34,520 nucleotides of DNA from Acidimicrobiaceae bacterium. Its GTDB lineage: Bacteria > Actinomycetota > Acidimicrobiia > Acidimicrobiales > Bog-793. Under the pieces are notes generated by a model that was not told where the DNA came from, made no database searches, and was given only the letters and a program-made list of their open reading frames with translations. The translations under genes and the position numbers were made by a program. Each line of letters begins with the position of its first letter. Positions within the stretch are counted from its first letter, which is position 1. This document shows positions 7,046 through 16,794 of this stretch, piece by piece. The stretch lies in contig DAHUXW010000051.1 of the NCBI GenBank assembly GCA_027306925.1, positions 1 to 34,520 on the forward strand, given 5' to 3'.

Positions 7046-7339
7046 TCAAAGCTGGAAGGCCTCGGCGATCGACCGCTCGGCCTCGGCGTAGGCGAGGCCG
7101 GCCTTCGCGAGCAGCTCCGCGATCGCGGCGAGCGCCTGGTTCACGTGGTCGGCGCCCTGGTGCCACTGGGACCAGAGCTGCTCGAAGGACTCGCGGGCGG
7201 AACCCTGCCATCGCTGCGCGAGCGGCTCGATCTTGCGCTCGAGCTCCGCGATCATCATCTCGATCGCCGCGGCGCCCTGGTGGACCTCACCCGCGAGCGC
7301 CTGGAGATCGTCGGGGCTGACGCCAATCTCGCTGGGCAT
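7046..7339 (-). CDS. WXG100-family (ESAT-6-like) protein
   Basis: 97 aa, helical, central WQG (LAQRWQGSARESFEQLWSQW); ATG at 7339 inside a longer ORF. Confidence 0.85.
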   Translation of the reverse strand: MPSEIGVSPDDLQALAGEVHQGAAAIEMMIAELERKIEPLAQRWQGSARESFEQLWSQWHQGADHVNQALAAIAELLAKAGLAYAEAERSIAEAFQL

Positions 7340-7497
7340 CACTGGACCTCCCGAAAGACCGCCGCGCGACGCCCCGGTCGAGCGCTGACCGGCGGTACCG
7401 CCACGCGGGACGCACGCACGCTCGGCGCCACCGGTATTGCTAGCACAGGCCGGCCGAGGCGTGAACCGGGCCGCGCGCCCCGGCGGGCCGGGTGCAG

Positions 7498-8553
7498 CTA
7501 CCGGCCGGTGGCGGGCTCGTCGCCCGGCGAGCGCGGGTCCGCGTCCTCCGCCTCCGCCGCCACGTCGTCCACGAGCTCGGGGTGGGTCGCGGCCACGTCC
7601 CACAGCCGGCCGGCCACGGGCTCCTCGTCGAGGCCGAATCGCTCGGCCACGGTATGGGCGATCTGGCGCGGCCACCGCCGGCCCCTGTCCGGCTGGCCCG
7701 CGGCCCCGCCGGGTGCCGCCGGATCGACGTCCGCGTGCGGGCCCGCGTCCGGCACCTGGTCCGCCTGCGGGGCCGCGTGGAGCTCGGGGCCGACGTGCCT
7801 GGCGTCGCCGGGCCCGGGCTCGAGGTCCGCGAGTCGGGGTGCAGCCCGCCCCTTGTCCGCGGCCGGCTCGCGGTCCGCGCCGTCGGGCCGCGGATCGCCG
7901 GGCGACGGCGCGGCAGGCGGAGGGAGGCGGGGGTCGCCCGCAGGCCCGGCGACGTCCCCCGCGCGCGTCACACTCCTCGCGCCGACGGCCTTGCGGGCCG
8001 CGGCGACCGGCTGGCGGCCCGTCGGGCCGATGAGCGCGACCGTCAGCACCGCGCCGGCCGCGCCGCGCGCGAGCGACTCGCGGGTCCCCGCGGACAAGCC
8101 GAGCGGCGCCGATCCCGCGGTCAGCTCGCGCCCGCGTGACGCGATCCGCGACAAGACCCCTTGCGCGAGATCGAGCCGTGCGCACGGCGTCCCGAGCCCG
8201 CCCAGCTCGCCGTGGAGCGCGTCGACCGCGAGCGCCGGTCGTGGCCAGTGGTTGCGCAGGACCGGCACGAGCGCCGACGGGTCGAGGCCGACGTGCTCCG
8301 CGTAGCGCCACAGCCCGACGACCGCCGCCTGCTCGACGTGGAGCAGCTCGAGACGGCCGTGCTCGAGGGCGTCGAGGTCCACCCTCGGCACCCCGGTCGC
8401 ATCCCGCACCTCCTCGAGCGATCGCCCTGAGCGCTCGCGCGCGGCGCGCAGGAGCAGGCCGACCTCCACCGGGTTCGCCGGAGGCGGAGCTGTGGCGACG
8501 GACGTCCGGGACCCGGGCGCAGCCTTCGGCGGTCGCCGGAACAACCTCAACAT
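7498..8553 (-). CDS. RodZ-like N-terminal helix-turn-helix protein with low-complexity C-terminal region
   Basis: VGLLLRAARERSGRSLEEVRDATGVPRVDLDALEHGRLELL resembles the HTH_25/RodZ type; ATG at 8553. Confidence 0.65.
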   Translation of the reverse strand: MLRLFRRPPKAAPGSRTSVATAPPPANPVEVGLLLRAARERSGRSLEEVRDATGVPRVDLDALEHGRLELLHVEQAAVVGLWRYAEHVGLDPSALVPVLRNHWPRPALAVDALHGELGGLGTPCARLDLAQGVLSRIASRGRELTAGSAPLGLSAGTRESLARGAAGAVLTVALIGPTGRQPVAAARKAVGARSVTRAGDVAGPAGDPRLPPPAAPSPGDPRPDGADREPAADKGRAAPRLADLEPGPGDARHVGPELHAAPQADQVPDAGPHADVDPAAPGGAAGQPDRGRRWPRQIAHTVAERFGLDEEPVAGRLWDVAATHPELVDDVAAEAEDADPRSPGDEPATGR

Positions 8554-11488: not shown

Positions 11489-12895
11489 TCAGCTCGCCGG
11501 GCTCACGGAGCTCATGTTGAACTCGGCGACACGAAGGGTCGGCATCGCGGTGCGGCTCGTCCACTCGCCCCACTCTCGCGAGAGCGCCCGCTCGCTACGG
11601 CCCGCCTCGACGACACGCCCGAGCAGGTCGACCGGGCTCTCGTTGAAGCGGAAGTTGTTGACGGCGCCGACGATCTCGCCGTGCTCGACGAGGTAGACGC
11701 CGTCGCGCGTGAGGCCCGTGAGCAGCAACGTCGCGAGGTCGACCTCGCGGATGTACCAGAGGCACGTGAGCAGCAGGCCGCGCTCGGTGCCCGCGACGCC
11801 CTCGTCGAGCGACGCCGCCGCCCCCGGGAGCTCGAGCGTGAGGTTGTCGACCGGCGGCGTGAACTCGGCGCCCGAGCGCGCGGCACCCGCGCGGTGGTAG
11901 CGGAGACGCTCGAGCCGCCCGCCGTCGACCCAGCGAGTCGGTCCGATCGCCGCGCCGTCGTCGAAGACGGACACGTCGCTCGAGGACGCGCCCGCCGCGA
12001 CGAACGGCTGGCACGCGAGCCCGTGCGCGAGCGGGTCGCTCGACAGCCGGAGTGGCGAATCGGAGAGCACGTCGCCGATGCGCGTCCCGCCGCCGGGGCG
12101 CGCGAAGACGCTCCGGCCGTCCTCGGCGTCGCGGCCGCTCGCCGCCTCGGCGAGCACGATCATCAGGTCCGCGACCGCGTCGGGCGGGAGCACGACGTCG
12201 TAGTGCCCCGGCGGCAGCTCGATGCGACGCGCCGCCCACGACAGGCGCGTCGTGACCCGCTCGTTCAGCACGACGATCGCGTCCGGCGCGAGCCGGTCGC
12301 CCCCCGCCCCGGCCCACGCGGACGCCGCGCCGTCCGCCGCGCGCGCGACGAGCTGGAGCGACGCCGTGGGCTGGACGTGGCGCAGGCGCGTCCCGGCCGA
12401 GGTACCGAGGTAGGTCGTCGTGCTCTCGTGGCTCGCGAAACCCGACTGCACGTGGCCGGCCGCCCGCGCCTCGCCGAACACCTCTCGCAGCCCGGCGACG
12501 ACCGGAGCGACCGCGTCGAACCCGGCGAGCACCGGCGCGTCGGCGAAGTCGGACGCCTCGCCCGCCGCGACGAGCGGCGCTTCGTCCTCCGCGGCCGTCG
12601 CTGCCCGGGCGTCGGACTCGGCCGCGGCGACCAGCTCCGCGACGTCCCCGCCGCCGCTCCGGCTCGCGACGCCGACCGAGGTGCCCGACGCCCCCGCGTG
12701 GAAGCTCACGACCGTGACCCTCCGGTCGCGGCGTTGCCCGTTCGTCGTGGTCGTGTTGTTCGCGAACCGGACGTCGACCTCGCTGCGCTCCTCCACGATG
12801 ACCGCGCACCGGCCCGCGGTCGCCGCCGCGAGCGCGCGCTCCACGACCTCGTGCGCCGGGTCGAGCGGCGTCCCGGTGCCTGCGACCGAGCTCAC
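11489..12895 (-). CDS. TldE/PmbA-family modulator of DNA gyrase / metalloprotease partner
   Basis: Paired with an adjacent TldD; VSFHAGASGTSVGVAS, YLGTSAGTRLRHVQPTASLQLVAR, LLLTCLWYIREVDLATLLLTGLTRDGVYLVEHGEIVGAVNNFRFNESPV. Confidence 0.87.
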   Translation of the reverse strand: MSSVAGTGTPLDPAHEVVERALAAATAGRCAVIVEERSEVDVRFANNTTTTNGQRRDRRVTVVSFHAGASGTSVGVASRSGGGDVAELVAAAESDARAATAAEDEAPLVAAGEASDFADAPVLAGFDAVAPVVAGLREVFGEARAAGHVQSGFASHESTTTYLGTSAGTRLRHVQPTASLQLVARAADGAASAWAGAGGDRLAPDAIVVLNERVTTRLSWAARRIELPPGHYDVVLPPDAVADLMIVLAEAASGRDAEDGRSVFARPGGGTRIGDVLSDSPLRLSSDPLAHGLACQPFVAAGASSSDVSVFDDGAAIGPTRWVDGGRLERLRYHRAGAARSGAEFTPPVDNLTLELPGAAASLDEGVAGTERGLLLTCLWYIREVDLATLLLTGLTRDGVYLVEHGEIVGAVNNFRFNESPVDLLGRVVEAGRSERALSREWGEWTSRTAMPTLRVAEFNMSSVSPAS

Positions 12896-12929
12896 GACGC
12901 GCCCGCGACGCGCCGGGCGGGCGCTACCG

Positions 12930-14438
12930 TCACCGTCCGGACTCCCCGAGCGTGTTCAACACGTTCACCTGCCGGAACAGCGCGCTCGGGCATCCGTGGC
13001 TCACGGCCGCGACCTGGCCGGGCTGGCCCTTGCCGCAGTTCATCGCGCCGGCGAGCAGGTAGGTCGACTCCCCGCCGAGAGCCCCGAGCGCGCCCCAGAA
13101 GTCCGTCGTGCGCGACTGGTACGCGACGTCGCGCAGCTGGCCCGTGATCCGGCCGTGCGAGATCTCGAAGAAGCGCTGGCCCGTGAACTGGAAGTTGTGC
13201 CGCTGCATGTCGATCGACCAGCTCTTGTCGCCGACCACGTAGATGCCGCGGTCGACGCCCGCGATGAGCTCGGCGGTCGTCGGCCCGGCGGCCCCGCCGT
13301 GCGCGAGCGACACGTTTGCCATGCGCTGGATCGGGATCATGAGCGGCGAGCACGCGTACGCGCAGCCGTTCGACCGGGCGAAGCCCGCCTCGGCGGCGAT
13401 CCGCCGGTCGAGCTGGTAGCCGACGAGGACGCCGTCGCGGACGATGTCGAACGCGGTCGCCGCCACCCCCTCGTCGTCGTACGCGACGGTCGCGAGCCCG
13501 TGGGGGGTCGTGCGGTCACCCGTCACGTCCATGAGCTCCGAGCCGTAGCGCAAGGTGCCGAGCTGGTCGAACGTCGCGAACGACGTCCCCGCGTACGCGG
13601 CCTCGTAGCCGAGCGAGCGGTCGAGCTCGGTCGCGTGGCCGACGGACTCGTGGATCGTGAGCCACAGGTTCGTCGGGTCGATCACGAGGTCGTACGCGCC
13701 GGGCTCGACGCTTCGCGCTGCGAGCTTCTCGGCGAGCCATCCGGGCATGGACTCGAGCTCCGACTCGAAGTCCCAACCGTCGCCCTCGAGGTACTCGAAG
13801 CCGCGCCCGACCGGCGGCGCGCACGTCCGCATCGTCTCGAACGCCCCCCCGGGACCGTCGAGCGCGAGCGCCTCGAGGCTCGGGTGGACCCGCACGCGGC
13901 GCTGGGTCGTCACGGTGCCCGCGAGGTCCGCGAAGTGCTTCTCCTCGGCGACCGCGTGGAGGCTGGCGGTCACGTGGTCGACGCCGGGCGCCGCGAGCAG
14001 GCGGCGGCTCCAGGCGCCGAGGAGCGCGACGCGCTCGTCGATCGGGACCGTCGTCGGGTCGCGGCGGTAGGGCGCCTCCCAGGTCGACTCACCGTGCGCG
14101 GGCTCGGGCGCGAGCTCGACCGGGGCCGCGCCGGCCGCCGAGGTGACCTTCGCGAGCGCGACCGCCTGGTCGACGAGGCCTCGCGCCGCGTCGGCGTGGA
14201 GCTCCACCGTCGCCGCGAAACCCAGCGCGTCGCCGTGGACCACGCGCACGCCCACACCGACCTCGACGTCGTCGGACGTGCCCTCGACCGCGGCGTCGCG
14301 CAGCGCCAGGTACTGGTCCCGGATGACCTCGACGCGCACCTCTGCGTGACGGCAGCCGAGCTCAGCCGCACGCGCGAGCGCCGCGGAGCGGATCGCCTCG
14401 AGCGGCAGCTCGGCGAGCGTCGGCACCGCACCGCTCAT
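12930..14438 (-). CDS. TldD-family metalloprotease
   Basis: HExxxH-type motif HESVGHATELDRSLGYEAAYAGTSFA; ELMDVTGDRTTPHGLATVAYDDEGVAA; GGAMNCGKGQPGQ-like C-terminus. Confidence 0.9.
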   Translation of the reverse strand: MSGAVPTLAELPLEAIRSAALARAAELGCRHAEVRVEVIRDQYLALRDAAVEGTSDDVEVGVGVRVVHGDALGFAATVELHADAARGLVDQAVALAKVTSAAGAAPVELAPEPAHGESTWEAPYRRDPTTVPIDERVALLGAWSRRLLAAPGVDHVTASLHAVAEEKHFADLAGTVTTQRRVRVHPSLEALALDGPGGAFETMRTCAPPVGRGFEYLEGDGWDFESELESMPGWLAEKLAARSVEPGAYDLVIDPTNLWLTIHESVGHATELDRSLGYEAAYAGTSFATFDQLGTLRYGSELMDVTGDRTTPHGLATVAYDDEGVAATAFDIVRDGVLVGYQLDRRIAAEAGFARSNGCAYACSPLMIPIQRMANVSLAHGGAAGPTTAELIAGVDRGIYVVGDKSWSIDMQRHNFQFTGQRFFEISHGRITGQLRDVAYQSRTTDFWGALGALGGESTYLLAGAMNCGKGQPGQVAAVSHGCPSALFRQVNVLNTLGESGR

Positions 14439-14685
14439 CGCGGGGCCCCCGGTGGCAGGTGGCAGGCGACGGCCGCGCCGGTGCGCGCCTCGCGCGCGAA
14501 CGGCTCCGACACTCCCACGCGACCTCCCCGGCCGTCGCTCCCGACGCCGCGCGCCCGGGCGGCACGCCGGGTCGGGACCCTGTTGCAACGCTAGCCTGCG
14601 CGTCTGTCGCCGTCGCCCCGGTGGCGGCACGGCGGCAGCCGGCACGGCGCACATCGGTCACGGCGTACAGCGTCACGGAGGAGTG

Positions 14686-16794
14686 GTGGGAGCACGGCAG
14701 GACGGCGCACGTCGTGCGGTGACGGCGGTCGGCGCGCTCTCGCGCGCGCTCCACGCCGGCGGCGGCTCGACGATCGGCGGGCGCATCGGGCTCGCGCTCG
14801 ACCCGGACCTGCTCGCGTCGCTCGCGGTCGGGCGCGAGGTCGCGCTCGTGTCCGGGACGAACGGCAAGACGACGACGACGCGCCTGCTCGTGGAGGCGCT
14901 CGGGGGGCCGGGCGAGGTCGCGACCTCGCTCGCCGGCGCGAACATGCCCGGCGGGCTCGTCGCAGCCCTCGCGCCGGCCCGCGACGGCGAGCCCGCGGTG
15001 CTCGAGGTCGACGAGGGCTACCTGCGCGACGTCGCGCGCGCCGTGCGCCCGCGCGCCGTCGTCGCGCTGAACCTCTCTCGCGACCAGCTCGACCGCGTCT
15101 CGGAGGTGCGGATGGTCGCGGCACGCTGGCGCGACGCGTTCGCCGAGCTCGACACGACCGTCGTCGCGAACTGCGACGACCCGCTCGTCGCGTGGTCGGC
15201 TGGAGCGGCGCGCGACGTCGTCTGGGTGGCCGCGGGAGGGACCTGGCACGCGGACGCCCACCACTGCCCCGTGTGCGACGCGGAGATCCGGTTCGCGGCG
15301 CCCGGCGAGGCCGCCGGCTGGTCCTGTCGCTGCGGCTTCGCCCGCCCCACGCCTCGCGCCGTGCTCGAGGGCGGCTCGCTCGTCCTCGACGGGCGCGCGT
15401 CGCCGATCGACCTGGCACTTCCAGGGCGGTTCAACCGGGCCAACGCGGCGATGGCCGCCGTCGCGGCGACCGTGCTCGGGCGGAACCTGGACGAGGCGAC
15501 TTCGGCCGTCTCCCGGGTCGGAGAGGTCGCGGGCAGGTTCGCGGTCGTGCGCGACGGAGCGATCGACGTCCGGCTCCTGCTCGCGAAGAACCCGGCCGGG
15601 TGGAGCGAGCTCATCGAGATGGTCGCGTCGGGCGCGCGACCCGTCGCCGTCGCGATCAACGCCAGGGACGCGGACGGTCACGACCCCTCGTGGCTCTGGG
15701 ACGTCGACTTCGAACGACTCGGCGGCTCGACCGTCGTCGCGACCGGCGAGCGCCGCCACGACCTCGCGGTTCGCCTGCGGTACGCGGGTGTCGCCCACCG
15801 CGTCGTCGAGGACCAGGTCGAGGCCGTGCATCTCGCGGCCGTCGCCGGGGGGGTCGACTACGTCGGCAACTACACGGCGTTCCAGCAGCTGAGGCGATCC
15901 CTCGCCGCCGCGCGTCGCGTCGAACGACCGCCCGCGCCCGACCCGGGCGTGCTCCGGCCGCCGGGGCCCGCGGTCGCCGCGCGCGCCCCCGGGCGCGCGA
16001 GTGCCCGTCGCGAGCGGCTCACGGTCGTCGTCGTCCACCCGGACCTGCTCGGGACCTACGGCGACGGTGGGAACGGGGCCGTGCTCGCGAGCCGGGCCGC
16101 ATGGCGTGGTCTCGCGGTCGAGCTCGTGCTCGCGACCTCCGACGCCCCGCTGCCGCGCGGCGGCGACCTCTACTGCCTCGGCGGCGGCGAGGACGGACCG
16201 CAGGGGCGCTCGGCCGCGCTGCTCGCGGACGGGGCGCTCGAGCGCGCGATGGACCACGGCGCGACGGTTCTCGCCGTGTGCGCCGGCTTCCAGATCGTCG
16301 GGACGACGTTCGCCGGGCCCGGCGGCGCGCCCCAGCACGGGATCGGGCTCGTCGACGTCGAGAGCGTGCGCGGCACCGGCCGCCGTGCGGTCGGCGAGGT
16401 CGTCGTCGAGAGCGTCGAACACGCGGCGAAGGGCGGCAACGGCTTCGCCCTGGACGCGGGCCTCCTGCTCTCGGGCTTCGAGAACCATGCGGGCGTCACC
16501 CGCCTCGGTCCGGGCGTGGCCCCGCTCGGGCGGGTCCGGTCGGGCGCGGGCAACGGGGCGGGCGCGGCCGGCCGGCCGGAGGGCGCGGTCACCGGTCGGG
16601 TCGTCTGCACCTACCTCCACGGACCGGTGCTCGCGCGCAACCCCGCGCTCGCGGATCGGCTTCTCGCGTCCGCGACCGGGGCCGCGCTCGCGCCCCTCGA
16701 CGACACGGAGGAGGACCTCCTGCGGCACGAACGGCTGCGAGGCGCGACAGGGAGATTGCGACCCGGCATAGGGTCTCTCGTGCGGGTAAGGTGA
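14686..16794 (+). CDS. Single-chain MurT-GatD fusion: lipid II isoglutaminyl synthase (Mur ligase domain plus class I glutamine amidotransferase)
   Basis: MurT part: VSGTNGKTTTTRLLVEAL, ANMPGGLVAAL, LEVDEGYL, NLSRDQLDR, Cys4 ribbon HCPVCDAEI...WSCRCGF, FNRANAAMA. GatD part: VVHPDLLGTYGDGGNGAVLASRAAWRG, YCLGGGEDGPQ, VCAGFQIVG, GFENHAGVT, YLHGPVLARNP. No stop between. Start is GTG 14686 or 14719. Confidence 0.9.
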   Translation: MGARQDGARRAVTAVGALSRALHAGGGSTIGGRIGLALDPDLLASLAVGREVALVSGTNGKTTTTRLLVEALGGPGEVATSLAGANMPGGLVAALAPARDGEPAVLEVDEGYLRDVARAVRPRAVVALNLSRDQLDRVSEVRMVAARWRDAFAELDTTVVANCDDPLVAWSAGAARDVVWVAAGGTWHADAHHCPVCDAEIRFAAPGEAAGWSCRCGFARPTPRAVLEGGSLVLDGRASPIDLALPGRFNRANAAMAAVAATVLGRNLDEATSAVSRVGEVAGRFAVVRDGAIDVRLLLAKNPAGWSELIEMVASGARPVAVAINARDADGHDPSWLWDVDFERLGGSTVVATGERRHDLAVRLRYAGVAHRVVEDQVEAVHLAAVAGGVDYVGNYTAFQQLRRSLAAARRVERPPAPDPGVLRPPGPAVAARAPGRASARRERLTVVVVHPDLLGTYGDGGNGAVLASRAAWRGLAVELVLATSDAPLPRGGDLYCLGGGEDGPQGRSAALLADGALERAMDHGATVLAVCAGFQIVGTTFAGPGGAPQHGIGLVDVESVRGTGRRAVGEVVVESVEHAAKGGNGFALDAGLLLSGFENHAGVTRLGPGVAPLGRVRSGAGNGAGAAGRPEGAVTGRVVCTYLHGPVLARNPALADRLLASATGAALAPLDDTEEDLLRHERLRGATGRLRPGIGSLVRVR

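Follow-up and report, generated by a model that had tools for sequence, protein, structure and literature searches.

A putative single-chain lipid II isoglutaminyl synthase, with MurT and GatD fused in one open reading frame, in the Acidimicrobiia

We consider an open reading frame in which the two partners of the lipid II amidating enzyme, MurT and GatD, are joined, and whose product is very probably a lipid II isoglutaminyl synthase made as a single chain. This reading is based on the sequence, the domain content, the conserved residues, the predicted folds, a linker predicted to be disordered and the phylogeny. The ORF is located at positions 14686-16794 (+) of the window, by which we mean the whole stretch of 34,520 nucleotides that was analysed, an entire contig (C104) of the host assembly. 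It runs from a GTG start to a TGA stop over 702 codons without interruption, and the full-length product would be of roughly 72 kDa. The frame stays open upstream as far as 14452, and with in-frame GTG codons at 14683, 14686 and 14719 the true start is unsure. The features of the gene and of the pair upstream of it are as follows.

11492-14435, minus strand: TldD/TldE (PmbA) metallopeptidase pair, divergent and upstream of the fusion
14677..14681, plus strand: GGAGG, a possible ribosome-binding site read from the sequence, 4 bases before the GTG at 14686, a short spacing
14686..15918, plus strand: MurT part, residues 1-411 (Pfam PF08245 and PF08353; PDB 6fqb_A and 6gs2_B; invariant residues)
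15919..16005, plus strand: linker, residues 412-440 (29 aa), Pro/Ala/Arg-rich (AlphaFold2 pLDDT)
16006..16791, plus strand: GatD part, residues 441-702, a class I glutaminase (Pfam PF07685; PDB 9sq9_C, 5n9m_A and 6fqb_E)
16792..16794, plus strand: TGA stop codon (sequence)

The initial annotation of this DNA claimed a complete MurT and a complete GatD in one uninterrupted ORF, and the Pfam domains together with the PDB matches over both halves bear this out. The MurT half contains Mur_ligase_M (PF08245) at residues 55-175 (E 2e-12, above the curated cut-off) and MurT_C (PF08353) at residues 299-377 (E 5e-21; 75 bits against a cut-off of 25), and the GatD half contains GATase_3 (PF07685), a CobB/CobQ-like glutaminase domain, at residues 446-652 (E 1e-23, above the curated cut-off). 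The top PDB matches are the MurT chains 6fqb_A, 6gs2_B and 9sq9_A for residues 19-412, and the GatD chains 9sq9_C, 6fqb_E and 5n9m_A for residues 445-675; the identity of the fusion to characterised MurT/GatD is about 25-30%. The NCBIfam equivalogs for MurT (NF045635) and GatD (NF045636) are the top matches of their respective halves but miss their cut-offs, with 136 of 800 bits and 79 of 400 bits, these cut-offs being very strict name-giving thresholds and not a feature that defines the family. Relative to other Mur ligases the N-terminus is truncated, leaving about 56 residues before the ATP loop, like in 6gs2_B and 6fqb_A.

The motifs that had been named along with the two domains (the ATP loop, the Cys4 ribbon, the C-terminal domain, the Cys of VCAGFQ and the His of YLHGP) are every one present, and they can be compared with the S. 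aureus and S. pneumoniae enzymes, for which the residue roles are taken from PMC6113224 and PMC6085368. In the MurT half, the ATP loop GTNGKTT occupies residues 57-63, with K61/T62 aligned to K59/T60 of SaMurT in the PDB alignment, and E107 aligns with the Mg-binding Glu of SaMurT, E108. The zinc ribbon, found in a subset of the MurT family only, is formed by C194, C197, C214 and C216. The C-terminal domain carries D330-G-H-D333-P-S-W, in which D333 aligns with D349 of S. aureus MurT. In the GatD half, C532 of the nucleophile motif aligns with C94 of SaGatD, H645 with H189 (H645-G646-P647 being an HGP that replaces HPE) and R567 with R128, and D460 matches D32 of S. pneumoniae GatD. In an alignment of 20 fusions, whose other members are 48-65% identical to the window protein, the residues K61, T62, E107, the four ribbon Cys, D333, D460, C532, R567 and H645-G646-P647 are invariant, and the N-A-x-x-A-D-G motif region is retained. 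Invariance at this level of divergence indicates that both halves are under selection. D333 is the most telling of these residues: it lies in the MurT half, and its S. aureus counterpart D349 supplies the last member of the glutaminase triad in the two-protein enzyme. Its conservation implies that the fusions keep the MurT-GatD interface of that complex, now within one chain.

We turn to the segment between the two halves. The AlphaFold2 model of the fusion, made with a 20-row alignment, has two folded parts (pLDDT 83, pTM 0.79), and pLDDT falls below 50 at residues 411-421 and 427-440, so that the linker is predicted to be disordered. Aligned separately with Foldseek, the first part finds MurT and the second finds GatD in the solved complexes from S. 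aureus, S. pyogenes and S. pneumoniae. A Pro/Ala/Arg linker of roughly 30 residues had been anticipated, which agrees with the 29 residues found. Across the fusions of all lineages the linker is 24 residues long at the shortest and 135 at the longest (median 44), and it shares no common sequence or conserved motif; it is Pro/Ala-rich in high-GC members and Ser/Thr/Asp/Gln-rich in four others (L011-L014). Two linkers (L018 and L040) consist in part of units repeated in tandem and in frame (APDGVAARV.. and PVPVAPEAR..), a hint at the way in which the linker lengthens. In one family (f39), the fused proteins L035, L057, L060 and L061 reach about 830-1040 residues, longer than the remaining fusions, and the alignment of L035 has large insertions beyond the linker too. 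An internal start that would yield free GatD was also considered and rejected: the window's linker contains no in-frame ATG and no start preceded by a Shine-Dalgarno sequence, and its sole in-frame start, a GTG lying 20 codons ahead of the GatD domain, is not conserved in relatives.

From the above, a working mechanism may be proposed; the activity, the substrate, the ammonia transfer, the packing within the molecule and the persistence as a single chain are what we infer. The GatD half (C532-H645) would hydrolyse glutamine to ammonia, with the third triad residue, D333, supplied by the MurT half. The MurT half, using ATP, would activate the α-carboxylate that D-Glu carries in lipid II; ammonia crossing the intramolecular interface would then give D-isoglutamine. 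The flexible linker may be a mere tether, with the two folded units packing like the known two-protein complex. It is plausible that the fusion enforces a 1:1 stoichiometry, as had been suggested for it. The covalent linkage need not change the activity, because MurT and GatD made as two proteins already assemble into a defined complex in which they share an active site.

The next question is how widely the fusion is distributed. The host is a metagenome-assembled genome of 2.87 Mb (97.6% complete, 170 contigs) in which no second copy of MurT or GatD, including the MurT_C domain, was found; it encodes MraY and therefore should make lipid II. A search for the same domain architecture, which had been put forward as a check, finds the same fusion in 28 genomes of the order besides that of the host. 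Within the host's family (f1), 16 of the 34 other genomes carry it in a single frame, two further ones have pieces cut at contig ends (L019; L020), and none has separate murT and gatD. Splitting of the two genes in the closest relatives, and a frameshift or stop in the linker, had been named as observations that would speak against a natural fusion; the relatives that have the gene have it fused, and the linker in the window sequence has neither. In other families of the order the fusion is present in 5/5 genomes of f45, 5/5 of f39, and one genome each of f43 and f60, and split genes are found in f16, f23, f30, f33, f47, f53 and others. This fused clade is known mostly from metagenome-like, multi-contig assemblies. 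Of the 80 named loci listed, which also take in Clostridia, Chloroflexi and a single record from Acidobacteria, the fusion occurs at the Atopobiaceae locus alone.

MurT/GatD was undetected in the remaining 16 of the 34 family members (G003, G006-G008, G010, G012, G018-G021, G023, G024, G028-G030 and G034). The same holds for many other genomes in the order and in the class, and here as in the family it is seen even at more than 93% completeness; G036 and G040, from the order, are single-contig genomes. This differs from the statement in PMC6085368 that the murT/gatD operon is universally present in Actinobacteria.

To examine the origin of the fusion, we use a tree built on a concatenation of both parts, MurT and GatD. 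In it, the f1, f39, f43 and f45 fusions form one clade (bootstrap 100, SH-aLRT 95). The f60 fusion (L062) falls outside of it, and a single clade including L062 is allowed (p-AU 0.29). The nearest named split relatives in the tree are labelled Acidimicrobiales and Acidimicrobiaceae. A locus of the same class, L101, is identical in the tree region to L190 (IMCC26256, CP011489), a member of the Acidimicrobiia; on these grounds the host is placed in that class. A distant set of fusions consists of the Atopobiaceae record L192 and two groups, f95 and f102 (L116, L120-L124). A single origin for all fusions was tried and is rejected, with a log-likelihood lower by 225 (p-AU 3e-5); therefore the fusion arose at least twice. 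A tightly coupled murT-gatD operon probably became fused in a common ancestor from which several families of the Acidimicrobiia descend, and the lineage containing the Atopobiaceae acquired its fusion independently. Such a repeated origin fits partners that work solely with each other. We offer more tentatively, as an idea with somewhat less than even chances, that two or more separate fusion events in Actinomycetota, with retention across several families of one lineage, reflect selection in favour of an enzyme that is obligately a single chain, perhaps against uncoupled glutaminase activity or loss of ammonia.

There is a structural concern, whether the ORF as read corresponds to one protein in the cell. 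An error of assembly or sequencing could have merged two overlapping genes into one frame, given that the host genome was assembled from a metagenome, into 170 contigs, and that in other families the genes are adjacent but in a different frame, as split pairs nearly always are. The relatives rule this out as the source of the fusion, and we regard it as having hardly any chance of being right: the architecture recurs in the order with different linkers on independently assembled contigs, and the 29 extra codons found here cannot be created by a base error, since the start of the GatD domain in split pairs from the order and class lies -10 to +62 nt from the MurT stop, with one exception at 99 nt (L037). 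A somewhat better, still improbable, account is that one chain is translated and then cut in the linker to give the usual two-protein complex. The linker is unconserved, predicted to be disordered and contains Arg, and a precedent is available in the fused molybdopterin synthase MoaX of M. tuberculosis, which needs cleavage for activity according to the title of a reference in PMC10484409. No sequence feature, however, calls for cutting, and relatives have no conserved linker motif, the composition changing completely among them.

The fused enzyme could also have changed its substrate and amidate a target other than lipid II, e.g., another Mur-type peptide precursor. Several genomes of this family and of this order manage without a detectable MurT/GatD, so that amidation is not universally needed there, and characterised enzymes are less than 30% identical to the fusion. 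Against this, the ATP-binding, glutaminase and interface residues are kept together with the N-A-x-x-A-D-G region, and the orthologues that the tree contains as two separate proteins are ordinary MurT/GatD; we consider a changed substrate very unlikely, less so than the merging of two genes by error and more so than cleavage. The preferred reading remains a lipid II isoglutaminyl synthase that acts as a single chain.

The neighbourhood of the gene suggests no functional link beyond shared descent. The fusion is flanked by the divergent TldD/TldE pair and by a UbiA-family gene (protoheme farnesyltransferase-like), after which thioredoxin-like and then SCO1-like genes are located. All six f1 genomes examined retain the UbiA neighbour or the TldD/E pair, unlike those of f45, f39 and f60; the TldD/TldE pair adjoins the fusion in several relatives. 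Elsewhere in the window, at 7049-8311 (-), a 421-residue ORF has a WXG100 (ESX secretion) domain near its C-terminal end (residues 329-412), preceded by a long N-terminal region that matches nothing in Pfam; its start is as called from the ORF.

MurT/GatD is essential in mycobacteria and staphylococci. The fusion is a naturally linked 1:1 construct of this drug-relevant enzyme, useful for crystallography, assays and inhibitor work, and the known chemistry is unchanged by it.

The fusion as such is not new, although the initial annotation implied so: Figueiredo et al. 2012 (PMC3267633) mention three fused murT/gatD ORFs as rare cases in Actinobacteria. The window fusion is of the same kind, both ORFs being merged in an actinobacterium; those three cases carry no species names in the text consulted. 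Among the later papers searched, we found none that describes or studies a natural MurT-GatD fusion and no biochemical or proteomic data on any, and structure papers treat MurT/GatD as a two-protein complex. What appears to be new here is the lineage, its breadth and the evidence of repeated origin.

Compared with the known MurT/GatD of S. aureus (6GS2, 6H5E), S. pneumoniae (6FQB) and S. pyogenes (9SQ9), the fusion has the same domains, the same order of murT then gatD, and the same catalytic, ATP, zinc-ribbon and triad residues; the known enzymes are two proteins, whereas this one is a single polypeptide with a 29-residue linker predicted to be disordered. The fusions of the Atopobiaceae lineage share its architecture, with linkers of 35-78 residues, but are far from it in the tree, where a joint clade is rejected. 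Amidotransferases in general occur as one or two polypeptides (PMC3266927, PMC5871853). The single-chain glutamine amidotransferases follow the same logic as the window fusion, with a synthetase and a glutaminase domain covalently joined, but differ from it in the acceptor and in the synthetase family.
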